64,000 bases of DNA from Sugiyamaella lignohabitans. Lineage: Eukaryota; Ascomycota; Dipodascomycetes; Dipodascales; Trichomonascaceae. The translations under genes were made by a program, and so were the position numbers. The stretch is taken from positions 1,178,001 through 1,242,000 of the forward strand of contig NC_031672.1 of the NCBI RefSeq assembly GCF_001640025.1. The letters are read 5' to 3'. A model generated the notes under the pieces. It did no database searches. It saw only the letters and a program-made list of their open reading frames with translations, and was not told the origin of the DNA. Shown here one piece after another: positions 220 through 61,764 of the stretch; within the stretch, counting starts at the first letter, position 1, and every line of letters starts with the position of its first letter.

Positions 220-958
220 CCCACCATTCTTCATCAGCTCTTCATCAACCCTCAATCAGCGTTGGTGACACAGTCAATGGATCACTGACGGAGGACAGGC
301 GGGACAGACCGACTGGCGACCACGACCCTGGCGAATCGACTCCTCTAACAACTCTCACCTCGAACTCCAACACCCACCACCGACCACGACCCGGAGCTTG
401 GATCAGGGTCCTGCAACGACTGCTGTCTCACACGGTCCGCTGGACACGGGACTGGGTGCCGTGCCTCCGGCGGCTGGGGCTCCGCCCCAGACCCCGCTGC
501 TCCTCTCGCTTCGCTCGAGTCGGGCGTGGGGGTCCCCCGTTTGTTGAAGGACGGTCGTCGTCAGGAACAAGGTGTCCGGCATCAGCACTGGCATCGGAAT
601 CAGCAGCACCAGAACCGATCCAGACTCGAGAACCATTGGTTCAATGGAGTAATTTTCTGTGATTATGGTTCTTTTCGACAACAGAGAGCCTCGACAGGGC
701 CTCTTTCCATGAACCAACCCCCTCGACACCCCCCTCCCCCTGATCTGCTCACCATGTCCCCTCCACCCCGCATGTCTCCACCATCCCCCTCCCTCGCCTC
801 TCCCCGCACCGCCCCTCCCCAACGCTGCCCCTCACCCCACGCACCGACTCGAGCGTAGCGAGAGGAGCCACGGGGTCTGGGGCGGAGCCCCAGCCGCCGG
901 AGGCGGGCCCCCCCGCCCCTCCCCCTTAGAGCCGTAGACTAACAGTTACAGATTCATT
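1..958. promoter_or_regulatory. Upstream region of EGD1
   Basis: No gene is seen here. Positions about 169-221 hold an imperfect hexamer tract (CCACGT changing to CCACGA, about eight units). PGE1 occupies 463-904. The last 54 bases before the EGD1 ATG are pyrimidine-rich and then A/T-rich, as expected of a yeast 5' leader. The open frames crossing 456-858 read through the PGE and are not credible proteins. Confidence 0.5.
463..904. repeat. PGE1, inverted-repeat element, type a / type a, long spacer
   Basis: The left half (463-522) and right half (845-904) are near-perfect reverse complements of each other, about 60 bp each, and both start GCCTCC at the outer end. The 322-bp spacer is unrelated to the other PGEs and is C/T-rich in its right part. 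This is one of the few copies in a promoter, ending 54 bp upstream of the EGD1 start codon. Confidence 0.9.
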
Positions 959-1405
959 ATGGACGCCGATAAGTTAGCTCGTCTTCAGAAGTCCGTCAGA
1001 ATCGGCGGTAAGGGTACTCCTCGTCGTAAGGTCAAGAGAACCGCCAAGAACACCGAGGGCGATGACAAGAAGCTCCAAGCCGCTCTTCAAAAGGTCCAAG
1101 TTCAACCCATCACCGGTATTGAGTCGGTTAACATGTTCAAGGACGACGGCACTGTTCTGCACTTCCCCCGTGCCTCTGTTCAAGCCTCTGTTCCTTCCAA
1201 CACATTTGCCATCACCGGTAACCCCGTTGAGAAGACCATGAGCGAGATGCTTCCCGAGGTCCTTTCTTCCATGGGTCCTGAGTCTTTGGAGCAATTGCGT
1301 CAACTCACCGAGCAACTCAAGGCCGGTACCGGTGCTAAGGAGGCCGAGGACGACGATATTCCCGAGCTCGTCGAGGGCGAGAACTTCGAGGACCGTGTCG
1401 ACTAA
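959..1405 (+). CDS. EGD1: Nascent polypeptide-associated complex subunit beta
   Basis: This is the beta subunit of NAC, the cytosolic heterodimer that binds ribosomes near the exit tunnel and shields emerging chains from mis-targeting. The 148-residue protein matches the usual fungal length (about 150-160). Residues 21-27 (PRRKVKR) form the basic ribosome-docking motif. The NAC domain covers roughly residues 38-100 and contains [10 protein letters not shown]. The C-terminus is acidic and ends with the family-typical [13 protein letters not shown]. The ATG at 959 directly precedes the conserved DADKLARLQ, so the start is secure, and no intron is needed. A PGE lies 54 bp upstream. The next one is 247 bp past the stop, an unusually large distance in this window. 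Confidence 0.97.
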
Positions 1406-1652
1406 ACACTCCCCCCTCGTCCCCCTCTCTTCTCACGAGCACCACCCCACTTCCCCACTTCTACCACCACCGCGACCATGTCGTGCCCCACTCTACGAAT
1501 AACGAAGTGAAAAAAACTGCAACCCTCGAGAGCTACCTGTTAAGATAATATCTGTATATATATATCTTGTGTACGAAAAGAGCAGCCTGCCGCTGCCTCG
1601 CGAAACCCTCATCTCGGTTCCGGCCCCGGACTCACGGTGGGGGCACGCACCT

Positions 1653-1932
1653 GCCTCCGGCGGCTGGGGCTCTGCCCCAGACCCCGCTGCTCCTCTCGCT
1701 GCGCTCGAGTCGTTGCGTGGAGGGGTCCCCGTCGCTGGGGGGTGGGGTTCTGCCTCCGGCGGCTGGGGCTCCGCCCCAGACCCCGCTGCTCCTCTCGCTG
1801 CGCTCGAGTCGATGCGTCGAGGGCCCTCTGCCATCTCCTGCGGAGCACCCCGCTGCGTGGAGGGGTCCCCCCGCCATCTCCTGCGAAGCAGGAGCAACCA
1901 GGGTCTGGGGCGGAGCCCCAGCCGCCGGAGGC
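1653..1932. repeat. PGE2, compound element with three halves (a, a, b)
   Basis: Two type-a left halves in the same orientation (1653-1712 and 1752-1811) are followed by one type-b right half (1878-1932) containing the CTCCTGC-GAA-GCAGGAG hairpin. It looks like an element that gained an extra left half by local duplication. It lies 247 bp downstream of the EGD1 stop. Confidence 0.88.
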
Positions 1933-2236
1933 ATGTGCCCCTCCGACAATTGCGGACCGTGGTGGGGCCCCGATGGGAGGAGTAACGGCGTGGTGACAGA
2001 CGGGCTCGTGTCCAATTAGTAATTGAGGGCAGAGGGTGGCAGGTGAGACACGCAAGGGAGAGGCGGTTCATGGGGGCCAGAACCACTGTGTTGGTGCTGT
2101 GATGACCTGATGGCCTGCTGTGCTGATGTCATGACCTTTCATGATAAGCTGCCGATGGGGGTTATCTAACAGATCGACCAGCTCCCCACACGCCCCCCTG
2201 GTCCTCTCCCCTCCACGTCCACCCTTCTCCCGCCAT

Positions 2237-2291
2237 CTCCTGCGAAGCAGGAGCAACCAGGGTCTGGGGCGGAGCCCCAGCCGCCGGAGGC
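2237..2291. repeat. PGE3, solitary type-b right half
   Basis: A single right half made of the CTCCTGC-GAA-GCAGGAG hairpin, a CAACCAGGG linker, and the terminal hairpin and GCCGCCGGAGGC end. No left partner is seen nearby except the compound PGE2 about 300 bp to the left. Confidence 0.85.
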
Positions 2292-2600
2292 AGACCCCGG
2301 TCCCAGTGGACCCCTCCCTCGCCGGGACTGGCGGTAGTGAGACGCCCGTGTCATAGGGGCGCCGATGGAGGGGCTGTTTTGACAGGAGCAGCGGCAGCAG
2401 CAGCAGTTGCGGAAATGCTTGGCCTGCATATGATGGGCGGAGCAGCAAAGGAGTGAATAGCAGCGGCATGGTTCAGGCATGGTTTAGGCATGGAGCAGAC
2501 ACGACAGGGGACCGGATCGGCCGGCAGGTTTGCTAGTGAGTGAGAGCGTCTTAGCGTGGTCTTAGCGTGGAGCTTGTGCGTTGTTTAGCTAATAACAATT

Positions 2601-2775
2601 GAGGGGCTACACACGATACAGGACGGGGAGGCACAGCGACCCACTGTTAATTGAGGGGTTGAGAGGGGTTAGAGGGGTTAGAGGGTTGCAGAGGGATCAT
2701 AGAGGGGATCACAGACTGATCGAGAGGGGTACAAGGGGTTTATAGATAACGAACTACAGAGGGGTTATAGGGGTT
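2601..2775 (+). promoter_or_regulatory. Cluster of AGGGG (stress-response-element-like) motifs
   Basis: AGGGG occurs nine times on the plus strand, several as GAGGGGTTA in near-tandem. In budding yeast AGGGG is the core of the Msn2/Msn4 stress response element. The next gene downstream is GAD1, 1.2 kb away, whose yeast ortholog is linked to oxidative stress tolerance. The assignment as functional sites is inference. The tract could equally be a simple G-rich repeat. Confidence 0.3.
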
Positions 2776-5988: not shown

Positions 5989-6787
5989 AGCGCCCCCCTC
6001 CCGTGTGGGCCCGTGTTTCACTCGAGGCACGTCACCTGCCAGAGCGTGTCTTGGCAAGAACTATAGTTAGGCGAGCTATATTAACAAGGTTTGACTCGGT
6101 TCGCTGTAAGACGACAGAAGGGCCGTGGCGTGCTGTGGGCACAGAGTTTCTGCCCACGTTCTGGAGGTGGCCCGGTGAGGTTGCTGAGGGTTGAGACAGA
6201 AGTTTGGTTGGGTGTTAGCTGCTATTTTTAATATGAAACAGATGAGCTTATGCTATTTTTACTCATCAACTACTGCCGGAATAGAACAGCTACCCGAGAG
6301 ATATAATAAGAGCCAACTTTAAATGGCCCGCAGCCATGCTGCCACGAGGTGTGAGTTTGCAGTCGCTATACGAGCGAGAATGAGGGCTGGTTATAGAGTT
6401 TCGTCATGTCTGATATTTTTCGCTAGTAGATACTACATTACCTGCAACGGCAGGGGCGTCAATGTAGTAATTTTCGCCATATCTGACCGCTGATGCTGCT
6501 CGCCCTGGCAATGCCAAATGCCAATGCATGTGTTATAAACATTTCTTGGCAGTCGTTCGGTGTGAAATTAACGTGATGTGTGTATCTATGTTTCCGTTGT
6601 TACTTTGGTTGTTACTTTGGTTGTTACTTTCTGGTTGTTAAGGAACATTCTGATAAACGAGTGTGAACTGACAGGTGACCGACCATTAACGACAAAAGAG
6701 GATTACGTTCCAGACTCAGTCTGGACTCCATGCCCGTTATTTGTACTTGATTTATCGAGAACACCTTTGCAGAAATGGGATGGAAGC

Positions 6788-6845
6788 ATCGCAATGCCAG
6801 GGAAGTTCAAAGCTTAATCGCAATGCCAGGGAAGTTCAAAGCTTA
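6788..6845 (+). repeat. Perfect 29-bp direct tandem duplication
   Basis: Two identical 29-bp copies sit back to back (6788-6816 and 6817-6845), each starting ATCGCAATGCC and ending AAAGCTTA. Perfect identity suggests a recent event. No coding context. Confidence 0.9.
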
Positions 6846-8352
6846 ACGACGACGCTTGAAGCACCAGAGCAGGCTAAATTGCACTGTAAATAGCACTGTA
6901 AAGATGCACCTGTGGATTTAAAGTTAGCCCCGGGGAGGGTACACTCTGCAAATGTCTCAAGAAGTACAGTTCGGCATCTCATTCCAGAAGGTAAAAGTGG
7001 AAAACAAATGTCGAACTACAGGCTCCACCTCTTGTATTTACATCCATGGCGTATTGAAGGTGTTATGAGAAAAGTGCTGCTGCCTTTATTGCAACTACCC
7101 CGTTTCTCTGTTTACAGGTAAAATTAGTTCACGTAATATAAAAAGAAAAAGAAATACTGGCCAATTCTGTTGTTATAGTTTAGATAACTCAAACTTGCAC
7201 TTTGGTTTTACCCCGCTAAATCTGAGCAAATTACTAATACTTTATTCGAATAACTAGCTTGTTAGTACTAGAAGAACCATGGTTGATGAGGTAAAGCTGT
7301 AATAGGTATCACCAATCAATATTTTTAGTGTACAAATCGGTTGTTAAGAACCAATCAATGCAATTTACTAGAGTGTAATCAATAGTTTCGCTGTCATCTT
7401 TCTATACCTTTATAGACAGGTGGATTTTTCTCATGACAAATAGTAGTTCAAGGATCGTGAAGCAGAGGTAAACAAAAGCCAAGTGCACCTATTTCCAGGG
7501 CCTAGAACCTACTGGAAAACGGTCCATTATATGAGCTTTTTTGGACTCTCTCGGATGCGGCAAGCGATACGCAAACGCCATGAGGGTCTAGTGGCACTTA
7601 GGTTATTTGCACAGTCAAACCATGTGTCTTGAAACACATTTATCAGTATGGTCAAGTGTCGATCCAGGAGTTGCAAAGTTTAAACCTATATCCGAAGAAG
7701 CTTAATTTTATCTAACGACCGCACAGGACCCTTTGCCTTTGCAACATGCCTAATATACTAGCCAGGTCACATGCAAGACATTTGTAGCAGCAAGTTGCAC
7801 TGATCAGGGGTCTAAGTGGATTTAAATTTGAAACACTTTTGTGTGATTAGCCGGCTCCCTTAGTTGTCGACTGGATCGGTTGTGTCAGCAGTTGCTTCCT
7901 ACCAGTTTCAAAAAGTTCCAGAACTTGGAAGGGAAGAAATCTATGCAATATCTATGCAAGGAATGAGGGGAACTTGTATATTTTAGGCGAATTTAAACAG
8001 CTCAAGATAGCTTATGAGGATTGGATACGAATGTCAACCGAGACATGAATGTCAGAGACATCATGTCCAAGTGCCTGTGACAACATGATGAACATGTGTA
8101 TCATAATGCAAGGACCGCAACAGGCATGTTATTTGATTCGGAAAGAGTAGCGAAAATAGCGCACCTTCCTTTGGACAGTATTATTGGACCCCATTTCTCA
8201 AGAAAGATGAATTATGAAACTTATTCATTGTATGCGAATCTACAGTCGAGATCCAAGAGATCTTCAGAGCAGATGCATATACTGGCTATGAATAGTAACT
8301 GTTATGTACAATAAGAGCACGATCTGTTGCAGGACAACTGAGTTGTGGAAGT

Positions 8353-8424
8353 GAGTAACTGAGTAACTGAGTAATTGAGTAACTGAGTAACTGAGTAACT
8401 GAGTAACTGAATAACTGGGTAACT
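8353..8424 (+). repeat. Octanucleotide tandem repeat (GAGTAACT)n
   Basis: Nine consecutive 8-bp units, six of them exact GAGTAACT and three with single changes (8369, 8409, 8417). A short GTTCCA repeat (8428-8450) follows directly. Confidence 0.9.
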
Positions 8425-8759
8425 GAGTTCCAGTTCCAGTTCCAGCTCCATAAACTCAACTCTATAGAGCTGAGCCCTACAACTCAACTCTATAGCCCAC
8501 TTTCTATAATCCAGTTTCAAATGACAACGGGTTGCCGTCGGAAAAGCCACAAAACCTACCAATCAGGGCAGCTGTCATTCAAACAAAATAAGTATAATAA
8601 AATTCGAACAATGTCAGTAATAATAAGCAATCCGGTTGAGCTGCCAACTGTAAATGCCTGAAATGTAGCGAACAAACGTGGGTTCCGTGCTGCATATGGC
8701 CGCCTCATTTTCGTGTTGTCGAGTTTCTATAATAATTTAGACTGTATCATAAAGAATTT

Positions 8760-8800
8760 CATAGAGTATCTCATAGAGTATCTCATAGAGTATCTCATAG
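8760..8800 (+). repeat. 12-bp tandem repeat (TCATAGAGTATC)n
   Basis: About three and a half copies of a 12-bp unit, preceded by a partial copy. Variants of TAGTAGAATAAT and TATAACA recur over the next 150 bp, so the neighbourhood is generally low-complexity. Confidence 0.85.
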
Positions 8801-11757
8801 CGTATTATGGGTCTGTATTGGCATATCATAGTAGAATAATATCAAATTGGTGGTAATCACAGTAGGACATTATAGCGTCGCTGTATAGTAGAATAATATT
8901 CGTTCTAGACATCTTATCAGCGTAGTAATATAACAATGTAGTAGCGTAGCATATCAATATAACAGGGTAACCTCCCTCCACTCAAAAGAATTCATCCTGG
9001 AATTTCACCACCATTTTACCCTTTACACCACCCTCTCCCTGATTCCTAGATCCCCTGCAATTGCAGCTCATGCACTGCGATTAATGACACCATGCCTATC
9101 TGGACGATCGGGTTAACTACGCAAAAGGCTCAAAAGAGGAGCATTATCGATTAATAGTTATGAATACCCCAAAAGAGATTAAAAGCTACCCGTAAACTGA
9201 CAAGAAAAGTATGAACCCGTTTAACATATCAAATCCACCGTAAACAGAAGATAAAGTCATAAGAAATTTGTAAACTTGATGTTGATATATTCTGTCGGCC
9301 ACATACGATCGGGTAATAGTTTTGGAGCGTAACTCAGTTTATTATGCAAGGCTGCTGACCCCACTCTTTCCAGGCAATTTCCATCGGGATAACTCTCAAC
9401 CACCCCGCGTATTTCCCCTCTTTCTCCGAGTTCCCCCTCAGCTTTTTTTGCTCGGCGCCCGTACTTGTAGGACTCGTATTCTTGATTATAAGTCAATTCG
9501 AGACATGCATAGCTATTTATCCACTCTTCAGTTACGTAATCAGCGGTGTCTTACAGTACACAAATAAAAATACCCACTTGCTGAGTGGTTCGATAAATAG
9601 ATCCAGGCCATTATTTACCTTTATGCCTGTTTCTCAATTTTTTTTAGTTTTGGCACTATGAATCACTGACACTACCGGAATTACTCCGACAGCATACGGT
9701 AATCTTTTGTTTTTTCTTCTTCTCACGCAGCAGCATTATATAATATATAAAATATATAAAGCCGCGTCTACAGGGGATCGAAACAGAAAACAGGAAAAAA
9801 ACGAACCACAAAGACACACCAAATAGAAAAACAAAAAAAAGTTGGCGTTTTGAAAAAGGCTGTTTGAAAAACATGATTTTACAAGATATCGAAAAAGGTT
9901 GGCTATTAACAGGTCACATACTTCAAAAGAGTATTTCTGACCAATATCAATTATCTAAGTAACAAAGAAATTATATGAGAAATTCACCGACAATTGCATT
10001 ATTAAAATCGACCGTTTTTACGGCTCTTTTAACAAAACATTCTCAAACGTGAACTATAAAGCCATACCATCTGTTGATAATGCACATCCGTATGCTGCCC
10101 CTCCCCACCACTGACTGCCCTACTTTAAAATGAAATCACGGCGGTACTAAACTAATACCAACACTATATTTTTTTGATCTACATAGATTAAGAGAGAGAG
10201 TTATTCTCAACAGATCAGGGAAAAAAAAAGCAAGAACAAGAAAGAACTACAGTGATACCCATCAGGTACATGACCTTGATGCTGCCCCCAAAAGAAAATG
10301 AACTAATCATTGAACAGAAAAAAAAAAAACAAAGAACAAATCAAGAATATGAGTAGATGTAAACCAAGACATGAACAATAGGTTGGGAAAAAGAAAAACA
10401 AATTTCACTTGATTATATACGGGTCTAATAGCTGAGAGATATGTATCTTGACATATATGTCAAAAAATAAATATACACTATTTACCAGTTTCTGGTATAG
10501 CCAAGTTTTGCTTACAAGCCCGGATCTGGTTTGGGTCTCTTAGATTGAGTATTTTTAAACAGGTGTCAAGCTAGTGCTTGTTTGTCGCCATTGAACAATT
10601 ATTCATTACACTTAGCATTCAGTTCGAAAGGATTATACAAGAGTCACCTCAGTCGACCACGAGAAAAAAACATACTCTGAGGAAGTTGCTTATTATGTCT
10701 GAGACTAGTTGGATTTATAAACTTAAATTCTAAACGTGGTCCAGACTAAAAAGCAAGCTAAACGGAACATAGCTGAAAAGAAGAAAACACCCCCGGTTAA
10801 ACTAAAGACATTATAGATAGATTTGGGCATACATCAAGTAGAAAAAATTGCTTATAAACTGGAGTGTTAACTATATTACTTGGCCGTATTGCAAGCTATT
10901 GCAGTTGACTTTTGTTGCAAGATTTCTTATATCATTTGAGTTATCACTAAAGTTTTACAGAATTGTTATTCTTTCATTCATTTTTGTTTTTTTTTTATAT
11001 CTTCGGAATCACGTTCCTTGCTCGAGTTGGAAATTTTATCCACTAGTATTCCAGAACATGGAATCAGAGATTTTATCTCAGTTCAGATATAAACAGCAAG
11101 TGCACATTTTGTAAGTATGTTGGCTTTTCCAGTTCGGTTTAGTCAGGGGTGTAGTAAAAGAAGTGAGAATGAGGAAAGCTCAAACATAGATGGGTTGAGA
11201 GATGAAGATAATTGTGCTAGAGAATTGAGCAATGAATTTGGATCGAATCAATGTTAAGATTACAGATATGATATGGGAGAAAGATATGGGTGAGACGAGA
11301 GATACGCGGTGAAGTAGGCGATAATTCGACAAGTACTTCAGTTAGGATGGTACGGATACCCAATTACACGCAATTGACATTATTGTCAGCTATTAATTCT
11401 ACGATTGATATTGATATTGGTTATTGGTATTGATATTGGCTTGACATTGCAGTTGCGGATGGATGATTCATTGATTTCGTGGATTATAATACCAATGTTG
11501 TGCCATTGAGCATCACCGACCAGTAAAACTTCAACAAGATAGCACCAATTATCCACCAATTATCACAGGCAATATCAACAACCCTCAACAGAATTCATTA
11601 GTTTACTGTCGGCAAACCCATCTAGGGGTCTAGACTTTTTGATACAGGAAATATTGCGTTTACAATAATTCGTGGATCAAAAGCCAAAAAAAGGCAATAC
11701 CCGACCACTGCAGACAGTTACCTGTTTGATCAGATTTATGAAAATGCCGAACAACTG

Positions 11758-11815
11758 ACAGCAGCAGCAGCAGCAGCAGCGGCAGCAGAACCAGAAGCAG
11801 AACCAGAAGCATAAG
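11758..11815 (+). repeat. GCA-trinucleotide-rich tract
   Basis: Seven to nine GCA units are followed by two GAACCAGAAGCA units. In one frame this would encode poly-Ala then (EPEA)2, followed by TAA. No gene is supported around it. Confidence 0.75.
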
Positions 11816-14800: not shown

Positions 14801-14919
14801 AAGAAACAATCACCAGTTCTGCATTTGATTATTTGCATGATTAACCGCCTAATGAACGTTTAAACAATTGAGCTCTGCAATATCTGGTCATCGTCTCTTT
14901 CATTTGTGCTATATTACCA

Positions 14920-16572: not shown

Positions 16573-16710
16573 GCCTCCGGCGGCTGGGGCTCCGCCCCAG
16601 ACCCTGGTTGCTCCTGCTTCGCAGGAGATGGCCAGGACCGTCGACGGAACGACTTGAGCGAAGCGAGAGGAGCAACCAGGGTCTGGGGCGGAGCCCCAGC
16701 CGCCGGAGGC
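16573..16710. repeat. PGE5, type b / type a, between two convergent genes
   Basis: A compact 138-bp element: a left half with the CTCCTGC-TTC-GCAGGAG hairpin, a short spacer containing CCGTCGACGGA, and a type-a right half from 16650. Its two GCCTCC ends lie 97 bp from the transcription-factor stop and 45 bp from the cyclin stop. Confidence 0.92.
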
Positions 16711-21079: not shown

Positions 21080-21214
21080 GCCTCCGGCGGCTGGGGCTCT
21101 GCCCCAGACCCCGTGGCTCCTCTCGCTACGCTCGAGTCGGGGCTTACACGGTCCCGGCCACTCCTGCGAAGCAGGAACTACTGGGTCTGGGGCAGCGTCC
21201 AAGCCGCCGGAGGC
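21080..21214. repeat. PGE6, type a / type b, degraded right end
   Basis: Type-a left half 21080-21139, type-b right half from 21161. The right terminal hairpin has lost pairing (GGCAGCGTCCAAG instead of GGCAGCGCCCCAG), one of the few PGEs with a damaged stem. It lies in the IVY1 upstream region, not at a known gene end. Confidence 0.88.
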
Positions 21215-21248
21215 ACACCTGTACAACACCGGTTATTGGCGGGGGTGT

Positions 21249-21476
21249 GCCTCCGGCGGCTGGGGCGCTGCCCCAGACCCCGTTGTGCTCCGCTTCGCGG
21301 AGCGGGCTGGGACCGTGTACGTGTGTGGCTGATTGGGGTCCGGTGCCGGGACGGACTTGGACCCTGCATGGCGGTGCTACCTCCAACTCCCGAGTTCGGC
21401 CACAACACCCACGCACCGACTCGAGCGTAGCGAGAGGAGCCACGGGGTCTGGGGCAGAGCCCCAGCCGCCGGAGGC
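21249..21476. repeat. PGE7, variant inner hairpin / type a
   Basis: The left half has a unique inner hairpin GCTCCGC-TTC-GCGGAGC, different in sequence from types a, b and g but with the same TTC loop. The right half (21417-21476) is type a. It sits 35 bp from PGE6, so the two may be a local duplication or a nested insertion. Confidence 0.88.
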
Positions 21477-24047: not shown

Positions 24048-24185
24048 GCCTCCGGCGGCTGGGGCTCCGCCCCAGACCCTGGTTGCTCCTGCTTCGCAGG
24101 AGACTGAGGGCACCGTCGACGGAACGACTCGAGCGCAGCGAGAGGAGCTGCCAGGGTCTGGGGCGGAGCCCCAGCCGCCGGAGGC
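24048..24185. repeat. PGE8, type b / type a, between convergent IVY1 and TRM5
   Basis: 138 bp, same layout and spacer core (CCGTCGACGGAACGACTCG) as PGE5. It fills most of the 217-bp gap between two stop codons, 54 bp from IVY1 and 25 bp from TRM5. Confidence 0.93.
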
Positions 24186-27600: not shown

Positions 27601-27764
27601 GCCTCCGGCGGCTGGGGCTCCGCCCCAGACCCTGGTTGCTCCTCTCGCTTCGCTCGAGTCGGGCTACGGGCCGTCCAGATCGCGAATTCACAGTATTTTG
27701 GACCCTCCCGTTCGCTCGCGAAGCGAGCACAACCAGGTCTGGGCGGAGCCCAGCCGCCGGAGGC
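27601..27764. repeat. PGE9, type a / compact type g, between convergent OMS1 and RRP4
   Basis: The left half (from 27601) has the 7-bp-stem terminal hairpin. The right half has the compact 6-bp version (CTGGGC-GGA-GCCCAG) with the GCTCGC-GAA-GCGAGC inner hairpin. Its ends are 69 bp from the OMS1 stop and 73 bp from the RRP4 stop. Confidence 0.92.
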
Positions 27765-28914: not shown

Positions 28915-29358
28915 TCTCTCACTCTCCAATCACAAAACCGACTCTCTTCTCGGTCACTCTTGTCCCCCTGTATATTTTCTACTTCACCACTCACTCTGAA
29001 ATTTCACGCCGATCCACGCAGGGGGTGCTCCTGCGGCGCGCGCCGCACTGGTGCGATACATCCACTGCCACTGCCTCCGGCGGCTGGGGCTCCGCCCCAG
29101 ACCCTGGCTGCTCCTCTCGCTCCGCTCGAGTCGTTTCTCCGGGAGTCCCCCACCCTCTCCTGCGAAGCAGGAGCTACCAGGGTCTGGGGCGGAGCCCCAG
29201 CCGCCGGAGGCAGAGGACCCTGCTGCAGTTCCCCGTGATCGTCAGGGTAGGGGTTGATCGGGAGATAGGGTTTTCTGGTTCGAGGGCGTGTGTGAGTTTT
29301 TCAGTTGTTCGTTCGTTCTCACATATTTCGAGTGATTGAAAGAAGAAGGAAAAAAAAA
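28915..29358. promoter_or_regulatory. Divergent RRP4 / NPL3 promoter carrying PGE10
   Basis: 444 bp between two start codons. PGE10 occupies the middle (29073-29211). The NPL3-proximal part ends with an A-rich leader. No other motif is clear. Confidence 0.55.
29073..29211. repeat. PGE10, type a / type b, in a divergent promoter
   Basis: 139 bp with both terminal hairpins intact. It is one of the minority of PGEs not next to a stop codon, about 160 bp upstream of the RRP4 ATG and about 150 bp upstream of the NPL3 ATG. Confidence 0.92.
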
Positions 29359-30814: not shown

Positions 30815-30874
30815 GCCTCCGGCGGCTGGGGCTCCGCCCCAGACCCCGCTGCTCCTCTCGCTGCGCTCGAGTCG
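30815..30874. repeat. PGE11, type-a left half
   Basis: A complete 60-bp left half, 388 bp after the NPL3 stop, without an adjacent right half. The next right half, PGE12, is 1.1 kb away in the correct inverted orientation. Confidence 0.88.
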
Positions 30875-31123
30875 GGCGTGGGGGACATGCTCTGTTCTGG
30901 CGAACGTGGTTGGCGAGGTGTTTTGCCGGTTGGTATCTCGATTGTTGGCCGTTTGAGGGCTATTCTGGAGCTGTAATTGTGCTGCGAATTCGATGTTAAC
31001 CTTGTTTCTGGGCCTGTATTCTCTCAGGTCGCTGTTAAGTTGGTTTAAAAATCCATAATAAGAGTGTAGGAAGCAAAATATTGTCAAGAGAACATGGCAA
31101 GCTTTAGATGCTGGTATATTCAA

Positions 31124-31880
31124 GTGTGTAATTACAGGTTCCTGAATTCAGTTCTGACAAGAGTTGAACAACAGTCTTGTGTTGAGTGAATAAACTGTCG
31201 AACGTGAATCTGGTGTGTAGTTATAGATTGCTGAAATTCTGTTCTGACACGAGTTAGTTTTAAGTGAATAGATATCGAGCTTGAACCTGAGTGTGTAATT
31301 GCAGTTCGCGGAATTGGTGTTCTGACAGTATTCGAGAAATAATCTTGTGTCGAGTGAATCATCTGTCGTATGTGGAACCAGGTGACCTGAAATTCAGATT
31401 TGCCATGAGTTGAAGACCAATCTTAATATTGGTTGAATGAACTGTCGAACTTGAACGTGAGAGTCTAGTTTGCTGAAATTCACTTCTGAAACAAGTTGGA
31501 AGGACAACAATCTTAGCGTTAATCGAATAAACTATCGAATGTGGTAACGATATACTGTTGACCCAAGTGTGTAATTATAGTTTCCTAGGATTCAGTATTG
31601 ACAGGACTTGAGACAAGCTCAGTGTTCGATGAATAAAATGTTGAATATGAACTCAGGTATGTGATTACAGTTCAGACTGTCAAACTTGGAGTTGGGTGTT
31701 TAATCACAGTTTCTTTGAATTCTGTTCTAACACGACTAATTGGAGGGAAAGGAATAAGCTGTCAAACATGGATCCCAGCTGCAAAATTGCGGTTTACTGA
31801 TGGTTGAAGAAAAGCATTATATTTGTTGAGTGCAGTTTCGAAGTTGAATCTGGGTTTACAGTTTACTGAAGCTCATTGTT
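31124..31880 (+). repeat. Degenerate tandem array, unit about 80-90 bp
   Basis: Nine or ten diverged units recur at about 31124, 31213, 31291, 31380, 31458, 31566, 31655, 31695, 31774 and 31850. Each unit runs roughly GTGTGTAATTACAG, TTGCTGAATTC, TGTTCTGACACGAGTTG, CAATCTTGTGTTGAGTGAA and TAAACTGTCGAACTTGAA. Most units are 78-89 bp, with some truncated to about 40. Divergence between units is high, so this is an old, decaying minisatellite. It is not coding. Confidence 0.8.
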
Positions 31881-31997
31881 GACGCGAGTCGCAGGGCAGC
31901 TATAAAATACCAAACAGAAAAAGAGGTTCCCTTTCTTGGTAGTTCTCCCAGGTCGATATCCTCGACGGTTTCTAGTAGATGCTGCTTCCCCATGCCC

Positions 31998-32056
31998 GAC
32001 TCGAGCGAAGCGAGAGGAGCAGCGGGGTCTGGGGCGGAGCCCCAGCCGCCGGAGGC
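31998..32056. repeat. PGE12, type-a right half
   Basis: A complete right half, 71 bp past the MCH1 stop with its GCCTCC end facing that stop. It may be the partner of PGE11, in which case the pair brackets the degenerate tandem array. Confidence 0.88.
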
Positions 32057-34655: not shown

Positions 34656-34792
34656 GCCTCCGGCGGCTGGGGCTCCGCCCCAGACCCTGGTTGCTCCTCT
34701 CGCTGCGCTCGAGTCGTTCCGTCGACGGTCCCAGCAGTCTCCTGCGAAGCAGGAGCCACGGGGTCTGGGGCAGAGCCCCAGCCGCCGGAGGC
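34656..34792. repeat. PGE13, type a / type b
   Basis: A 137-bp intact element about 515 bp upstream of the MCH1 start. Its spacer GTTCCGTCGACGGTCCC resembles the spacers of PGE5 and PGE8. Confidence 0.92.
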
Positions 34793-35038: not shown

Positions 35039-35099
35039 GCCTCCGGCGGCTGGGGCTCCGCCCCAGACCCTGGTTGCTCCTCTCGCTTCGCTCGAGTCG
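35039..35099. repeat. PGE14, type-a left half
   Basis: A complete left half with no adjacent right half. The nearest right half in inverted orientation is PGE15, 760 bp away. Confidence 0.87.
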
Positions 35100-35861
35100 T
35101 TGCTCGGGGTGCCACGATACATTTCGAGTGATTCACAGGAACTTCAAATCTGAAAACGGGCCTGTCTGTTACCCAAATTTCATCAGGAAAAACACAGCAA
35201 AAGAGAGAAAATTTCTTCTCAAATGAATCAATCCAAGGCCAATTGCTTTTCTTTGCAGTAAATGTATAAAAAATGTCAAGAAAGAAGACAGGTCTTTCAG
35301 TCTGCTAATGAGACTCACCGGTAGATACCAGCCAGTACCCTTGCTAGCAATAACAAATCTCTGTAGTTAACAGCCAAAAAATCAGTCCAGTGTTCATCCA
35401 AGATAAAGAAAAATCAACTAGCATCTGAACAAACACTCAATTCCACCGGGAGAACACGCTTATTATTGGTATTCACTGAGAACAAGTGAGGCGATACCAA
35501 AGCAGGGACTGTCATATGAACCAATGAGATAAAAAATTCAAACTCATATGGGCTCTTTCAAGACAGTTCAACTACTAAATTAAGTAGTTTCGTCGTGTAT
35601 TATTATATTTATACTTTCTCGCAATAACCTATAGCATGCTCGTCAGGCAGCATCAGAATACACTTCACGCGAAGAGCAGTGATATTTTTACCAGGTCAAA
35701 GACTGAAAACCAGATGCCAGTCTATTAAAATACAAAGAGATCTACATTCGTTTTTAAATTTAAATACTCAGTCACTCTGTGGACCCTGAGTAGTCAGACC
35801 CTGCATACACGCCCCTAACAGACGAAATCCTCCGCCAGACCACCTCAACAGGGTCCAAACC

Positions 35862-35912
35862 GCTCGCGAAGCGAGCAAAACCCGGTCTGGGCGGAGCCCA
35901 GCCGCCGGAGGC
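35862..35912. repeat. PGE15, compact type-g right half
   Basis: A half with the 6-bp terminal stem CTGGGC-GGA-GCCCAG and the inner hairpin GCTCGC-GAA-GCGAGC. Its GCCTCC end lies 80 bp past the SRP14 stop. Confidence 0.88.
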
Positions 35913-35992: not shown

Positions 35993-36572
35993 TCAAGCTT
36001 TTGTTTTCTTGGTTTTGGCGGCCTTCTTCTTCTTCTTATCTTTCTTCCGCAGTCCACCCATTCCCGTCTTGACTGTGTCTGTGTACGCGGTCCAGAACCT
36101 GTCCAGAGCGTCTACCGACACCTCAGTCGAGATCTTGACCCGGGCCTTTTTGTCACTGTTTCCGTCTGTCGCCCGGAACAGCACCGAGTACGACTTGCCC
36201 TCGTCCGACGAAGCTGTCACTTTTGTATCTGATTCATGACTCACTAATTCTCTGGGTTAGTACGTGCGAGGTGGTGGTGAGCCTGCCTCCGGCGGCTGGG
36301 GCGCTGCCCCAGACCCCGTGGCTCCTCTCGCTGCGCTCGAGTCGGATCTGGGGGACCCCCGCATGGCTCGCGAAGCGAGCACAACCAGGTCTGGGCGGAG
36401 CCCAGCCGCCGGAGGCATGTCCACGCCCCAGGACCCGGCCCCATACCCGGGCCCGAACAGCACACTTACATCGCTTCTGGTGCAAGAAAACAGAGCCTTT
36501 CTGTTGAGCAGACGCAAATAGCGACGCCAGCTGGCTCAGAAACTCCGTATTTGACAGTCGGTTATCGGACAT
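35993..36572 (-). CDS. SRP14: Signal recognition particle subunit SRP14 (one intron containing PGE16)
   Basis: SRP14 binds the Alu domain of SRP RNA and mediates elongation arrest during ER targeting. Exon 1 is 36572-36470 (34 codons plus one base, ending FLHQKR). Exon 2 is 36243-35993. Joining gives 117 residues, the normal size. Exon 2 carries GKSYSVLFRATDG, KKARVKISTEVSVDALDRFWTAY and the lysine-rich tail GLRKKDKKKKK typical of the family. The 226-bp intron begins GTAAGT, has TACTAAC at 36261-36255 and ends ATTAG; this acceptor is the only nearby AG that keeps the frame without a stop codon. Most of the intron is PGE16. Exon 2 has no ATG of its own, so the intron is required. Confidence 0.9.
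36244..36469 (-). other. SRP14 intron, largely composed of a PGE
   Basis: 226 bp, donor GTAAGT (36469-36464), branch TACTAAC (36261-36255), acceptor ATTAG ending at 36244. The element occupies 36285-36416, leaving only about 50 bp at the donor side and 40 bp at the branch/acceptor side. Confidence 0.85.
36285..36416. repeat. PGE16, type a / compact type g, inside the SRP14 intron
   Basis: 132 bp with intact terminal hairpins. The left uses loop GCT with a 7-bp stem; the right uses the 6-bp compact stem. It must be spliced out with the intron, so it is transcribed as part of the SRP14 pre-mRNA. Confidence 0.93.
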
Positions 36573-36724: not shown

Positions 36725-36856
36725 GCCTCCGGCGGCTGGGCTCCGCCCAGACCTGGTTGTGCTCGCTTCGCGAGCCGTGAGGGGGCCCCAGAAGCACGAC
36801 TCGAGCATAGCGAGAGGAGCCATGGGCTCTGGGGCAGCGCCCCAGCCGCCGGAGGC
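36725..36856. repeat. PGE17, compact type g / type a
   Basis: A 132-bp element with compact left half and full-size right half. It is nearly identical to PGE18, which follows 26 bp later. The following flank (CCGGGTTCGGAGAG) is also shared, indicating a direct duplication of element plus flank. Confidence 0.93.
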
Positions 36857-36882
36857 AGTCCGGGTTCGGAGAGGAGGGGTCT

Positions 36883-37014
36883 GCCTCCGGCGGCTGGGCT
36901 CCGCCCAGACCTGGTTGTGCTCGCTTCGCGAGCTGTGAGGGGGTCCCAGAAGCTCGACTCGAGCGTAGCGAGAGGAGCCGGGGGGTCTGGGGCGCAGCCC
37001 CAGCCGCCGGAGGC
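36883..37014. repeat. PGE18, compact type g / type a
   Basis: A 132-bp tandem partner of PGE17. Its right GCCTCC end is 28 bp past the UBX2 stop. The spacer (GTGAGGGGGTCCCAGAAGC) matches PGE19 on the other side of UBX2, so these copies are recent relatives. Confidence 0.93.
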
Positions 37015-37042
37015 GCACCGGGTTCGGAGAGAGAGGGGGTGT

Positions 37043-39021: not shown

Positions 39022-39153
39022 GCCTCCGGCGGCTGGGCTCCGCCCAGACCGGGTTGTGCTCGCTTCGCGAGCTGTGAGGGGGTCCCAGAAGCTCGACTCG
39101 AGCGGAGCGAGAGGAGCCGGGGGGTCTGGGGCACAGCCCCAGCCGCCGGAGGC
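39022..39153. repeat. PGE19, compact type g / type a, between PIF1 and UBX2
   Basis: 132 bp, closely matching PGE18 including the spacer. The right end lies 41 bp past the PIF1 stop; the left end is 116 bp upstream of the UBX2 ATG. Confidence 0.93.
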
Positions 39154-39194
39154 AGGTCCGGGAACAGCGAAGTGGGAAAATAAATATTAAAAGA

Positions 39195-44234: not shown

Positions 44235-44373
44235 GCCTCCGGCGGCTGGGGCTCCGCCCCAGACCCTGGTAGCTCCTCTCGCTGCGCTCGAGTCGTTTCC
44301 GCGAACAGTCCCGGCCGTCTCCTGCGAAGCAGGAGCAACCAGGGTCTGGGGCGGAGCCCCAGCCGCCGGAGGC
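44235..44373. repeat. PGE20, type a / type b, between OGG1 and BUD13
   Basis: 139 bp occupying nearly half of the 288-bp gap between two tandem genes. Its left end is 41 bp after the OGG1 stop; its right end is 108 bp before the BUD13 ATG. Confidence 0.93.
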
Positions 44374-45486: not shown

Positions 45487-45551
45487 TGAATGTAACGAAG
45501 ATACCACCAACTTACAACCGCCAGGCTCCTGAGCCAGGATCGTAGACGGAA

Positions 45552-45611
45552 CGACTCGAGCGCAGCGAGAGGAGCCACGGGGTCTGGGGCGGAGCCCCAG
45601 CCGCCGGAGGC
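45552..45611. repeat. PGE21, type-a right half between convergent BUD13 and XRN1
   Basis: A complete right half, with a short stretch on its left (ATCGTAGACGGAACGACTCG) that resembles the spacer of PGE5 and PGE8, so the left half has been lost. It is 65 bp from the BUD13 stop and 63 bp from the XRN1 stop. Confidence 0.88.
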
Positions 45612-48600: not shown

Positions 48601-50887
48601 CGAGGAGCATAGTGGTATCTGAAATACCAGCCCCAAGAAGCACATCCTTTATAATAATAGTACAATACCCATTGCAAACCCTCCAAATAATTGGAAGCCA
48701 TATCACGGATCTTGTCTTCGTCTTTAAGAGTAATCCCAAACTTGGATTTGTAATAATTGTTTCTCCATTGATCGAATTTAGCAGAGTATACTTCTTTTTT
48801 GTGTTCCTCTACATCTTCCTTCTTGACCTCGGCATTTTCATACTTTTTCAACACTCTGTGAAGAGAGAGAATACGGTGGGTCTCTTCGTCCTCGTCCTCA
48901 GAGTCCGGCAAACCATCCACATCAAGAACCAACGAATAACGACCCTTGTCTTCAACAACCCTCGTATAAGTTCTCTCACCAACACGCTGCAAAAAGTGGA
49001 TATCATCTGGATTAATATCAGCAGGAAGAGTAAACTCGGGAACAGCTGGTGAAACAGGTGTGGGTGGAACATTTAAACTCGTAGAACTAGCACTAGCACT
49101 AGCACTGGTGCTGACTGCAGCACTAGCATCAGCGCTGGTCGCAGTACTTGCACTGGGTTTACCAGTACTGTTAGCAGTGAGAATAAACGGCTTCACCAGC
49201 CTGACCAACTCCTTCTGTTTAGCAGTCAAACTCAACTTTGCAGATGCCTTTTCTTTCTCCTCACCAGTCACACTGACAGTCTGCAAATCCTCATTAAACC
49301 ATTCAACGTCAATTGACGAATCTTCAAACTTCTTGTACTCAAACTTCGACATCTCATCGAGCCAAATCCCCAGTCGTTCAAAATTAATAACACCGGCATC
49401 ACTAATATACCCGTCAGCGGTCTTCAATACATGCTTATAGGTTTGCAAAACAGTAGGTAACGCACCTTCATTAATGAGCAAAGTGGGCAGTTCTGGCAAG
49501 AAATCATTACCAATAAAAAAGTTAATCAGAATAAAATCATCCAAAACCCTTTCGAAATCAAATGGGAATGCCGTATCATCTCTCACATCGTCGAATTCGA
49601 TCTCCAAATACTCTCTCACCAGCGACAAATGCAGCAAGAAAAACCGCTGGTCAGTCAACTCGGTCGATTTTTTCGAGCTTCTACCAAACGTTACCTCTTC
49701 TCTCAACAGAGCAAAATGCGGTTCGTGACTCAACAGACCCAACATAATCAAATCGGCGTCCAAACCATACAAACAATGACGGACATTCGACGGGTAGCCC
49801 TCTTGAGCCTTGGCATTTCGAATATGCTCCATGATCTTGTGTTCACCTTCACCGGGCACCTCGTGACCAGAGAGAATGATCTCAATGCCCTGCCAAGCCG
49901 TGTCTTCAGACACCTTTTTATTGATGAAATATTTCAGCTGTTTAGTCAACTTGGCCATAAACTCAGTACCGGGAGTAATAGCGTTCGAGTCGAACGGATC
50001 ATTACTCGGCAGCTCGACACCTGACTCAATAGCTTTTCGCCTCGCTCTTTCAGCATCGAGCGCACTTCTAAAACGTCTCGACCGTTGCTGATTCATCTTG
50101 GCTCTCGGAGCCACGCCATCCACCGCCATATAAAACAGTTTCTGGGGATGGATCAGCGTGAACAAATGCTCGATATAATTAAAAATCGCCAGAAACATCT
50201 GCTCCTCGGTCAAATGATGCGTCACATCCGAGTCCTTATGCGTACACGTATGCAAAATCGAGTTCATATCCAAATACAAGTTATCGAACCTGCTCTGTTA
50301 GTCTCTTCTCTGGTGAGGGACTGTGCCTCCGGCGGCTGGGGCTCCGCCCCAGACCCCGCTGCTCCTCTCGCTGCGTTCGAGTCGGGCGTGGGGGTCGCAC
50401 GAGCTCTGGGTTGACTAACTCTGACACCTGTAAGAGTCAAATCAAAGCTCCCCATCCCCGCGCCGCTCGCGAAGCGAGCACAACCCGGTCTGGGCGGAGC
50501 CCAGCCGCCGGAGGCATCTGACCAGTCGAACTTACTCTGGCACCTCGTTCTCGTTGACGAGCTGTGAGATCAGCGGCCATCTCTCCGAGACGTAGCGGAA
50601 AAATTTGGGGATACCTGGACTCTGTTAGAACTGGTGCTGGCTGGATCAGGGCTGCGTGATGACAAGATTTCACCATCAGGGCCTGAAACCACGCAAAAAA
50701 AGCCTTGATCTCATTCAAAAACCACCACCGACATCAGAAAGTAACTGTAATGACCAGAACTGACCAGCGAGTTCCAGAAATTATAGCACTGTTGCAAATA
50801 TCTCTGTTACGGTACAACTGAGAAGCGGTCTCGAATGACGAAGACGCAAGGTCTCGAGACGGTAATATCACGGTTCTACTGACCCAT
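45675..50887 (-). CDS. XRN1: 5'-3' exoribonuclease Xrn1/Kem1 (three coding exons)
   Basis: Main cytoplasmic exonuclease degrading decapped mRNA. Proposed exons: 50887-50884 (ATGG), 50614-50536 (giving GIPKFFRYVSERWPLISQL), 50289-45675 (starting FDNLYLDMNSILH). Joined, this gives 1565 residues, matching the usual Xrn1 length and its invariant start MGIPKFFR. Exon 2 to exon 3 splicing (donor GTAAGT, branch CTAAC, acceptor GCAG) is clear. Exon 1 is less certain because its donor would be GTCAGT, but the acceptor with TTCTAACAGAGTCCAG is good and this is the only ATGG|GT upstream that restores the conserved N-terminus. The nuclease core contains GHEVPGEGEHKIM, YGLDADLIMLGLLSHEPHF and FIGNDFLPELPTL. 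The C-terminal part is disordered, with poly-Gln, Ala/Pro-rich and proline-rich segments, and ends in RGG-like repeats. Confidence 0.9.
50290..50535 (-). other. XRN1 intron 2, mostly a PGE
   Basis: 246 bp. Donor GTAAGT (50535-50530), branch CTAAC, acceptor GCAG ending at 50290. PGE22 fills 50325-50515. Joining gives the conserved PEFDNLYLDMNSILH, so the boundaries are secure. Confidence 0.93.
50325..50515. repeat. PGE22, type a / compact type g, inside XRN1 intron 2
   Basis: 191 bp with a longer spacer. Together with PGE16 in SRP14 it shows that PGEs occur in introns but not in exons. The half combination (a with g) is the same in both introns. Confidence 0.93.
50615..50883 (-). other. Proposed XRN1 intron 1 (atypical donor)
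   Basis: 269 bp if the donor is GTCAGT at 50883. The acceptor side has CTAAC and CCAG|GTATCC. It contains no PGE. The alternative is an exon 1 that I have not located. Confidence 0.6.
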
Positions 50888-55995: not shown

Positions 55996-56777
55996 CCCCC
56001 TCCTCATGTATAATATAAATACTTTGCATGTCCACCCTACCTCGTGCTGCCTCCGGCGGCTGGGGCTCCGCCCCAGACCCTGGTTGTGCTCGCTTCGCGA
56101 GCTCCAAGGACTCGGGAACCAGGATTGGAAGCGAGTGGAGTCCCCCATTAATATTCTGTTTTCTGTTCGGATTCTCTTAATAGTATTCAGCTTCCAGAAG
56201 TCCACGAGATCAAGCTCGAAATTTATATTCATAAACAAAGATTTCTTTACACGGTTTAGGAAGCGAGCACAACAGTTGCCATGTCATTTATATCTGATGT
56301 CAAATTTATAATCATCCAGTCTGCCAACTTAAAGGATTAAGAGCTACTGATTGTACCAGTCGAATCAACTGAAGAGCTCACTTACTATGCGACTGTGTTG
56401 AAGATTTCCGAACGATCAATCTCTCGAATTTGGGAAAAGATCTGGAAGCTTGGCTTTCTAGGTACGTTTGCAACTTCCTGTAAACTGTTATCTAAATTGT
56501 ACGCGAAGTTGGATCTGAAGCATACAATCACAAAGAATTTTCCACAAATCATTCTAATAGAAGTCCCTCCAAGTTAAATTGAAATAAGAAATCAGGTTGA
56601 AATTTTGCTGGAATTCATAATTCTGGAGTTCAATTCAGAAGGTAGAATTTTCACTCAAAATTTATGTTATGAAATCTTTTAGAGAGCTCGCGAAGCGAGC
56701 ACTACCAGGGTCTGGGGCGGAGCCCCAGCCGCCGGAGGCAGGTGGGCCGATAGTAGCAAGAGGAGTAGATTAGATTA
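55996..56777. other. NUP49-NTH1 convergent intergenic region
   Basis: 782 bp without a gene. The two PGE25 halves sit at its edges, each beside one stop codon, with about 580 bp of AT-rich unique sequence between. Confidence 0.65.
56049..56739. repeat. PGE25, split pair of type-g halves
   Basis: Left half 56049-56102 (7-bp terminal stem and GCTCGC-TTC-GCGAGC inner hairpin), 53 bp past the NUP49 stop. Right half 56686-56739, 38 bp before the NTH1 stop on the other strand. The two are inverted with 583 bp between. Each half looks attached to one gene end. Confidence 0.88.
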
Positions 56778-60642: not shown

Positions 60643-60815
60643 GCCTCCGGCGGCTGGGGATCCGCCCCAGACCCTGGTTGCTCCTCTCGCTTCGCTCGAG
60701 TCGGGGCTTGGACCGTGGAGAGTGGGTGAGCGGTGGCAGAGGGGCCCCACGTGAACGACTCGAGCGAAGCGAGAGGAGCCACGGGGTCTGGGGCAGCGCC
60801 CCAGCCGCCGGAGGC
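60643..60815. repeat. PGE26, type a / type a
   Basis: 173 bp. The left terminal hairpin has ATCC in place of CTCC, which removes one base pair; the right stem is intact. Not adjacent to a known stop codon. Confidence 0.9.
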
Positions 60816-61130
60816 AGCACCCCCAGCCCGAGAAAGAAGGTCCAGCGGAATTAGTAGGGCAATTGCAACGGGGTCAGGGGGAGGGTCGGGTTAGGGCGCG
60901 ATGGCGGCCACTGCACGATAAGCGGCGACGCAGCAGCGGCGGCCGTGGTCTAGGAAGGAGGGGGGATAATCGGTGCGTTTGGCGGCAGGCAGCCGGCTCC
61001 AGGCCAAGCAGCACCACCAAACCAGAGAACAGCCAAAACCCGCCAAAAACGCCAAATTCGCACCTCACCCACTCCCCCCACCCCTCTAACACTCCGTCCC
61101 ACCCCCTCTAATACCCCCTCCCCACGCCAA

Positions 61131-61185
61131 CTCCTGCGAAGCAGGAGCAACCAGGGTCTGGGGCGGAGCCCCAGCCGCCGGAGGC
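61131..61185. repeat. PGE27, solitary type-b right half
   Basis: Same composition as PGE3: the CTCCTGC-GAA-GCAGGAG hairpin, CAACCAGGG linker and intact terminal hairpin. No left partner is adjacent. Confidence 0.87.
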
Positions 61186-61594
61186 AGTCCCCACCCTCGT
61201 CCATAGTTTCCAGCCCGGAAATTAATGCTGACACGGCCACGGGATTATGTAGCACTTGTGGGTGAGGCAGCGCAGGATGTAATTTAGGACTGCAGCAGGC
61301 CGGCGAAAACGGTGTGCAACCGGTAACGTGAGACGCAGCGGGATGCAGGCCGCTGCAGGCCCTGCTGTTATCAGTGGCTATCTCCCTGACAGCCAGTCAG
61401 CCGGCAAACAGCCTTGCTCCAGCCTGAATCAGTAATTACCACCCCCGTTCGTCGTCGTCTCTTTATTTACGCTTTCTTCAGCCCGTCCTTTGCCTGCTTC
61501 ATAACCAACTGCCTCTGTCCGCTGTTGGGCTACAAATCACACACTACAATTGAACCGGTTCGTATTTGGCTGTTTTGTAAGTCGGTCCACTGGT

Positions 61595-61618
61595 GGGGGG
61601 GGGGGGGGGGGGGGGGGG
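61595..61618 (+). repeat. Run of 24 consecutive G
   Basis: An uninterrupted guanine homopolymer five bases left of PGE28. The exact length is likely to vary between molecules or to be affected by sequencing. Confidence 0.85.
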
Positions 61619-61622
61619 TGTT

Positions 61623-61764
61623 GCCTCCGGCGGCTGGGGCTCCGCCCCAGACCCCGCTGCTCCTCTCGCTTCGCTCGAGTCGGGCGAGGGGGGTCCCCAG
61701 TGGTTTGTTTCTCCTGCGAAGCAGGAGCCACGGGGTCTGGGGCAGCGCCCCAGCCGCCGGAGGC
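61623..61764. repeat. PGE28, type a / type b
   Basis: 142 bp, both terminal hairpins intact, ending 61 bp before the ATG of the last gene. The adjacent G-run makes this the most GC-skewed spot in the window. Confidence 0.92.

Follow-up and report, generated by a model that had tools for sequence, protein, structure and literature searches.

The 64-kb stretch examined here (64,000 nucleotides of contig NC_031672.1 of Sugiyamaella lignohabitans, positions 1,178,001 to 1,242,000; 'the window' in the following) is interspersed with copies of a short GC-rich repeat, referred to as the element. A full element has two outward-facing GC-rich halves which flank a short middle, and each half is a row of small hairpins. 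The copies peak within 100 bp past stop codons, yet some are also located upstream of genes, inside an intron or in DNA without genes. Around them a strand-polar substitution footprint extends into the neighboring sequence. A sequence-only reading of the window had taken the repeat for punctuation at gene ends. Here, we analyzed the repeat family, its placement and the footprint, and we discuss what the element may be.

The genome comprises 15.93 Mb in four contigs (5.93, 4.95, 2.77 and 2.28 Mb). A total of 304 kb was analyzed: the window, a contiguous 200-kb block of contig 1 and 40 kb on contigs 2, 3 and 4. Counts 'outside the window' refer to the block, which is on the window's contig, and to the 40 kb on the three other contigs. 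Genes were defined as open reading frames (ORFs) of at least 200 amino acids (aa) with introns ignored; therefore, some are not terminal exons, and small and split genes were missed. The distance cut-offs for 'near' and 'far' were picked during exploration. Ten ORFs of the window were checked against Pfam, and TRM5 was assigned by homology; the closest named relatives of its product are from Blastobotrys adeninivorans (60%) and Trichomonascus vanleenenianus (61%). The names XRN1, PIF1, NUP49, IVY1 and SRP14 are those of the sequence-only reading.

A family of paired hairpin modules

A half-element profile of 61 nt was trained on 184 halves from the very 304 kb which were later scanned. It matched 233 halves, compared to none in shuffled sequence at an equal cut-off; 228 halves, forming 150 units, were kept at the score cut-off used in the later counts. 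The window contains 51 of these halves in 32 units, slightly above the 28 units reported before. The exact 16-base core GCCTCCGGCGGCTGGG is present 5,924 times in the genome (2,954 and 2,970 copies by strand), and the reversed control is absent. Thus, the repeat is real. In the window GCCTCC was found 61 times versus 26.2 expected, and the family covers 5.2% of the 304 kb. Extrapolation from 7.5 halves per 10 kb leads to about 12,000 halves in the whole genome. Rfam had no match in the window at gathering score, and no tRNA was detected there.

The order within a half-element is GCCTCCGGC (hairpin 1), GGC, TGGGGCnnnGCCCCA (hairpin 2), GACC with a linker, and hairpin 3. The latter exists in four types: A is imperfect and ends with CTCGAG, B is CTCCTGC-TTC-GCAGGAG, C is GCTCGC-TTC-GCGAGC and D is GCTCCGC-TTC-GCGGAGC. 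In 78 full elements, 47 of which are 129-145 bp long, the halves are combined as A+B (46), A+C (9), A+A (9), A+D (6) and others (8), never as B+B. There is a tendency for plus and minus halves to alternate along the chromosome, and some seemingly solo halves are the ends of longer pairs.

The + strand of one copy (44235..44373) folds far beyond its shuffled versions, with z-scores of -12.2 as DNA and -14.1 as RNA. In hairpin 2, scored in 208 of the 228 halves, changes are concentrated in the loop (118/624 positions, 18.9%) compared to the stem (27/2912, 0.9%; p 1e-66), and wherever hairpin 2 was readable (184 halves) its two arms were of equal length. Hairpin 1 lacks such a contrast (loop 11/624, 1.8%; stem 35/1248, 2.8%). 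In 184 of the 189 halves in which its stem is exact, hairpin 3 has the loop TNC, i.e. GNA on the opposite strand. Part of PMC4686876 describes GNA as the loop of extraordinarily stable DNA mini-hairpins. Judged from these patterns, the hairpins may be read as a structure which is maintained at the DNA level.

The outermost base of the full elements is T at the left end (91%) and A at the right end (92%). Target-site duplications of 2-10 nt at offsets 0-5 were not in excess over shuffled pairs at equal offsets in the 78 full elements; with unequal offsets, the best of 150 combinations was supported by a single element. This bears on whether the copies are an ordinary family of miniature inverted-repeat transposable elements (MITEs) of a DDE transposon, with a 3'-end insertion preference and no other role. 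Like MITEs and foldback transposons the element is short, non-coding, intergenic and of high copy number, it has terminal inverted repeats, and two long open frames with DDE_1 (pogo-type transposase) domains exist in the genome (C2:1705346-1705858 and C1:5904871-5905413; candidates for an autonomous partner). Unlike in MITEs, a target-site duplication was not found, a cognate transposase is not identified, and the halves are hairpin modules with differing third hairpins instead of one matched terminal inverted repeat. A MITE would also leave the footprint described below unexplained, and we consider this origin most improbable. DDE_3 and MULE domains were not found in the genome, whereas control genomes match. 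The Y1 transposase of REP/RAYT type (PF01797) had no match in the genome and had matches in 5 of 14 control genomes. Searches for hAT and Helitron were negative in this and in the control genomes and, hence, uninformative.

The sequence outside the elements was inspected as well. A stretch of 14-16 nt beyond each end is G-rich (G about 0.5 at 172 ends without a facing stop within 300 bp). A run of 24 G is located at 61595-61618 of the window, just beyond the element at 61623, and shorter G tracts are within 20 nt of many ends. The outer flanks were considered as an extended stem and this was rejected because pairing was weak (duplex z -2.5; identity z 1.5-1.7 at best). At 36710-37025 of the window a 158-bp unit of element plus flank is tandemly duplicated, and it recurs 2.1 kb away at 39007-39164 (85-89% identity).

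No description of the element was found in literature searches on element and species, which included parts of PMC5499181, PMC13130702 and PMC12232646, the genome paper (Bellasio 2016) being outside their scope. The exact 32-base core had no match in viral contigs. The first 60 bases matched 17 plasmid records (best E 2e-3, each over less than 80% of the query) and, over 22 bases, two phage records; both were dismissed as chance matches of GC-rich sequence. The 32-base core was present in one stretch of a metagenome-assembled genome of Desulfovibrionaceae (L029, 4654-4685; genome_contigs collection), apparently one base past a putative TAA stop. In the same assembly GCCTCCGGCGGCNNGGGG was found 11 times versus 0 for the control, and GC-rich hairpins often came after it when inspected by eye (10 loci, L030-L039). 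The resemblance may stem from convergence or from a shared origin.

Copies of the element in the window. Positions are those of the window; A to D denote the type of hairpin 3.
Position	Feature	Strand	Context
463..904	A-type halves at 463 (+) and 904 (-), spaced by 442 bp		upstream of a 148-aa ORF, 959-1405
1653..2291	cluster: solo + half at 1653; full AB element 1752-1932; solo - half ending 2291
5699..5988	AA pair		37 bp past GAD1-like stop (5661); Pfam Pyridoxal_deC
16573..16710	full BA element		common to convergent stops 16475 (97 bp) and 16756 (45 bp)
21080..21476	two full elements, AB at 21080-21214 and DA at 21249-21476		between divergent genes
24048..24185	full BA element		common to convergent stops 23993 (54 bp) and 24211 (25 bp)
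27601..27764	full AC element		common to convergent stops 27531 (69 bp) and 27838 (73 bp)
29073..29211	full AB element		flanked by divergent genes, RRP4-like 27838-28914 (Pfam-checked) and 29359-30426
30815..32056	+ half at 30815 and - half ending 32056, 1,242 bp apart		latter 71 bp from MCH1-like stop
34656..34792	full AB element
35039..35912	+ half at 35039 and - half ending 35912		latter 80 bp from stop (35993) of presumed SRP14
36285..36416	full AC element		in intron of presumed SRP14 (minus strand; exon 1 ~36471-36572, exon 2 ~35993-36256; splice sites judged by eye)
36725..37014	two full CA elements, at 36725-36856 and 36883-37014		second 28 bp from UBX2-like stop; Pfam UBX
39022..39153	full CA element		41 bp from stop at 39195 (presumed PIF1)
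44235..44373	full AB element		41 bp past OGG1-like stop (Pfam OGG_N); + strand a single hairpin, -71.4 kcal/mol as DNA
45551..45611	lone half	-	faces stop 45675 (63 bp; presumed XRN1); 64 bp from BUD13-like stop
50325..50515	full AC element		divergent region, ATG 57 bp away
51946..52108	AA element		divergent region
54129..54309	AA element with internal duplication		44 bp past stop at 54084
56049..56739	C-type + and - halves, 691 bp apart		53 bp from stop 55995 (presumed NUP49), 38 bp from stop 56778 (Pfam Trehalase)
60643..61764	cluster: AA 60643-60815; solo - half ending 61185; AB 61623-61764

Placement relative to genes

The sequence-only reading had listed 17 stop-to-element distances. They are right to within one base, and 15 were reproduced exactly with ORFs of at least 200 aa. 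The 80 bp given for SRP14, a gene below the ORF cut-off, also holds (the stop ends at 35993, the half at 35912). For BUD13 65 bp had been given; the profile yielded 64 bp and a stricter pattern 94 bp. The statement that almost every gene end is marked describes the window, where 16 of 18 ORFs have a copy within 150 bp of the stop, but not the sequence outside, where 38 of 69 do (55%). Thus, the window is richer in copies at stops (Fisher p = 0.0125). The 3'-end enrichment itself was replicated in fresh sequence: the 38 of 69 compare to 8.5 upon random intergenic placement (maximum 18 in 1,000 runs) and to 12 of 69 genes with a copy before the start (Fisher p 7e-6). Among the 228 half-ends in 304 kb, 54 have a stop ahead of them at up to 150 bp and 24 an ATG at up to 250 bp; the other 150 face neither.

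Two further claims held in part. The GCCTCC end faces the stop at full elements, as it must at any of them, the inverted repeat having both ends directed outward; it is not specific to stops since it was seen equally at 5' ends (5/5 in the window and 6/6 in the block, within 150 bp). Coding exons are untouched in the window (0 of 47 pattern-defined halves inside ORFs of at least 200 aa). In the 200-kb block, however, four units overlap three ORFs of 211-266 aa, the gene status of which is uncertain. The density of copies is uneven. Positions 5989-14919 of the window are 8.9 kb without an element and without an ORF of at least 80 aa (GC 0.395). On contig C1 a region at about 2178200-2185200 is dense in elements, has a GC of 0.54-0.65 and lacks ORFs of at least 200 aa.

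Have the elements been adopted as terminators or insulators which keep convergent transcripts apart, as proposed initially? The strong 3' enrichment would fit, and of 18 solo halves located up to 150 bp from a stop, 16 face it. Yet this bias is partly built in because plus and minus halves tend to alternate along the chromosome, and solo halves next to ATGs face the ATG as regularly (10/10 within 250 bp). Within 60 bp past the stop, an AT-rich motif of the poly(A) type was present in 17% of genes with a copy at up to 40 bp (n = 18), compared to 41% of genes without a copy (n = 29) and 59% of those with a copy at 60-150 bp (n = 22). Therefore, the 3' ends of transcripts from the first group may be located inside or past the element; alternatively, an element that close may displace the motif simply by occupying its place. 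Conservation and occupancy did not support a terminator or insulator. Stop-facing halves were not better conserved than others (median score 50.0 versus 52.05, p = 0.06), and in 18 elements with one stop-facing end the near half was not better kept than the far half (p = 0.34). Convergent 3' ends were occupied as often as tandem ones (34/52 and 20/30). Outside the window 31 of 69 genes (about 45%) lack a copy within 150 bp of the stop, and the majority of half-ends face no stop. Taken together, a terminator function appears very unlikely. In Saccharomyces cerevisiae short inverted repeats near poly(A) sites are enriched at gene ends, according to part of PMC6420913; those are short AT-rich or A/T-tract features, whereas the element is a GC-rich repeat family. 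We infer that the position past genes reflects where copies arise or are tolerated and not a function in punctuation.

A strand-polar footprint around the copies

On the strand which runs 5' to 3' toward an element T is replaced by C, and A by G on the other strand. The effect fades over about 600 bp, where it is near background; within 100 bp both strands are affected. Third-position GC is 0.37 at 1.5-3 kb from an element, 0.70 at 50-100 bp and 0.63 within 50 bp. At fourfold sites near 3' copies C amounts to 0.53 versus 0.22 in genes far from a copy, with G at 0.16 in both. At twofold sites near 5' copies the bases switch: G/(G+A) is 0.715 within 200 bp versus 0.452 far away, and C/(C+T) is 0.38 versus 0.36. 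(Part of PMC7403616 uses 'GC skew' in another sense and has no bearing on this footprint.)

The same polarity was evident gene by gene. In genes with a 3' copy third-position C/(C+T) was 0.736 at the end versus 0.390 mid-gene and was increased in 55 of 56 genes (16/16 in the window, 34/35 in the block, 5/5 on the other chromosomes). Without a copy within 600 bp the values were 0.370 and 0.340, with an increase in 17 of 26 genes. In genes with a 5' copy G/(G+A) was 0.628 versus 0.421 mid-gene and increased in 21 of 24 (6/6 in the window, 12/15 in the block, the remainder being too few to list), with C/(C+T) at 0.367 versus 0.345. Permutation of labels gave a maximum of 0.192 in 20,000 runs compared to the observed 0.295. 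The footprint was seen in all 16 neighbor contexts. In non-coding outer flanks C exceeded G in 119 of 150 scorable cases (p 1e-14), whereas 400 random points as a control for flank skew yielded -0.032 (p = 0.01), i.e. the opposite sign. Inner flanks of solo halves showed the sign of the footprint within 150 bp only (43/62).

Seven loci outside the profile training (L002-L008) served as a held-out check; they were the best matches to one copy and, thus, are not a random sample. They contain 14 ORFs of at least 150 aa with a closed 3' end, overlapping frames included, and in short ORFs the end and middle stretches overlap. Among the 11 ORFs whose stop has a copy within 150 bp, C/(C+T) was higher at the end than in the middle in 10 (7/7 within 60 bp), the exception being L008:2171-2740; none of three ORFs with a more distant copy showed this rise. 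The footprint is the most pronounced regularity around the elements. Its polarity follows the element and is independent of gene direction and transcription. It is not tied to gene ends because upstream copies and those in non-coding DNA have it as well.

Two general explanations were dismissed. Symmetric GC-biased gene conversion cannot be the whole story since 3' copies raise C with little G and 5' copies raise G without C; a small symmetric part exists in the first 100 bp (G/(G+A) 0.522 on the 3' side, C/(C+T) 0.569 on the 5' side, n = 72). Codon selection for expression does not account for an effect which is limited to the element-near end and in which the base switches with the side of the element.

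Does the element cause the footprint or is it a passive passenger? In the latter case earlier hot spots, such as breaks, open chromatin or R-loops at 3' ends, made the footprint, and copies were captured there, e.g. as hairpin fragments joined into breaks, and are themselves inert. The lack of target-site duplications in the 78 full elements is what capture at breaks predicts, and the peak of copies just past stops would fit, too. Foldback insertions at breaks, a lead for such capture, are treated in part of PMC11724301. Further, footprint and element intactness were not significantly related (rho 0.19 with the element score, p = 0.16). On the other hand, a copy-free hot spot was not seen. Of 56 genes having a copy at up to 150 bp, 46 reached a C/(C+T) of at least 0.6; of 29 genes with no copy in 300 bp, none did. 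This speaks for the element as the cause. The footprint around 5' copies and in non-coding DNA argues against passengers as well, and so does its greater strength at full elements (C/(C+T) 0.770 when the nearest half is in a full element, 0.676 when it is solo; p = 0.01). Altogether, mere capture seems unlikely.

Replication was considered as another source of polarity, with copies as initiation or fork-pausing sites and the polarity as leading/lagging-strand asymmetry. The skew does flip at the element, C-rich before and G-rich after, in the sense usual for bacterial origins, and the footprint is independent of transcription. Yet 5,924 cores in 15.93 Mb, one per 2.7 kb, are far too many for yeast origins, which are spaced by tens of kb, and the footprint fades within about 600 bp. 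A replication effect is therefore rather improbable.

Mitochondrial GC clusters and recombination hot spots

Two look-alikes of the element are found in mitochondria. Yeast mitochondrial GC clusters, e.g. GC42, are short GC-rich hairpin repeats, mostly intergenic, with substitutions concentrated in loops and shuffling of palindromes, and have been suggested as recombination hot spots (part of PMC4478555). The element likewise is GC-rich, short and hairpin-forming, with changes concentrated in the loop of hairpin 2, though not of hairpin 1. Unlike GC clusters it is nuclear, as the copies reside on contigs of 2.3-5.9 Mb together with nuclear genes. GC clusters have an AG target site, whereas a duplicated flank is absent here. 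Also, the element measures about 135 bp in two inverted halves, has thousands of copies clustered past stops, and is surrounded by a strand-polar footprint. Differing from GC clusters in location and target and from MITEs in the lack of a target duplication, it is set apart from both. The double-hairpin elements in the mitochondria of Allomyces consist of modular hairpins, as does the element, and are presumed to be mobile; we know of no gene-end preference or footprint for them.

A footprint which is strand-polar, raises GC and decays from a center, as looked for at recombination hot spots, was found at the element. Human meiotic double-strand-break hot spots have a central segment of about 100 bp without asymmetry and strongly strand-asymmetric flanks with an excess of C>N and A>N on one strand, as described in part of PMC7615360. 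The arrangement of asymmetric flanks around a central 100 bp is shared. The human hot spots were defined through PRDM9, Spo11 and break data, with flanks of 2 kb, whereas here the center is a repeat, the evidence is compositional, and the change is T to C on the incoming strand. A Spo11-type domain (TP6A_N) is present in the genome. An element-centered process that differs between strands, the human precedent and the Spo11-type domain together favor recurrent breakage at the hairpins with one-sided resynthesis or correction. Its main rivals are replication polarity and passive capture at older hot spots.

Possibly, then, we are dealing with a nuclear foldback element which resembles mitochondrial GC clusters and marks sites of recurrent break repair or recombination; we consider the chances of this being correct as about even. 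The hairpins would provoke recurrent DNA breakage with resection and resynthesis, or would persist where it occurs. One-strand repair synthesis or mismatch correction may leave the footprint. Ectopic gene conversion among thousands of copies would keep them alike and shuffle halves and loops. By analogy, the element may be like a nuclear version of mitochondrial GC clusters in look and working. The step from footprint to recombination hot spot is one which we infer. More tentatively, and with somewhat less than even confidence, we suggest that a dispersed hairpin repeat, and not a chromatin mark or a DNA-binding protein, positions the recurrent breakage and repair, and that strand-specific T-to-C change at thousands of copies, several per 10 kb and many of them next to gene ends, rewrites the adjacent codons.

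Several points weigh against a break-repair element. The copies could have landed at sites which already carried the substitution process, and replication polarity would yield a similar pattern. The base change is unlike the C>N and A>N excess at human hot spots, so the chemistry may differ, and the polarity could not be matched. The footprint does not grow with decay of the element and, therefore, gives no clock. G/(G+A) was slightly up at 3' copies, too (38/56, p = 0.015). The same holds for 5' ends with no copy in 600 bp (32/49, p = 0.036), so a weak general 5' trend in G/(G+A) exists. Finally, the stem of hairpin 2 has no compensatory double changes, and 23 of 27 changed pairs are unpaired.

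If the elements set the footprint, local mutation, codon usage and GC content would be under the control of a small selfish-looking repeat over a large part of the genome. Synonymous codon use near many gene ends would then be dictated by a neighboring repeat and not by translation, and each copy would serve as a fixed landmark from which to read, in vivo, the polarity of repair synthesis. The element would be a nuclear counterpart of the mitochondrial GC clusters, and how hairpin clusters spread, an old question, could be addressed in a yeast which grows in culture and has a sequenced relative. Even if passive, the copies label sites of a strong strand-specific substitution process.

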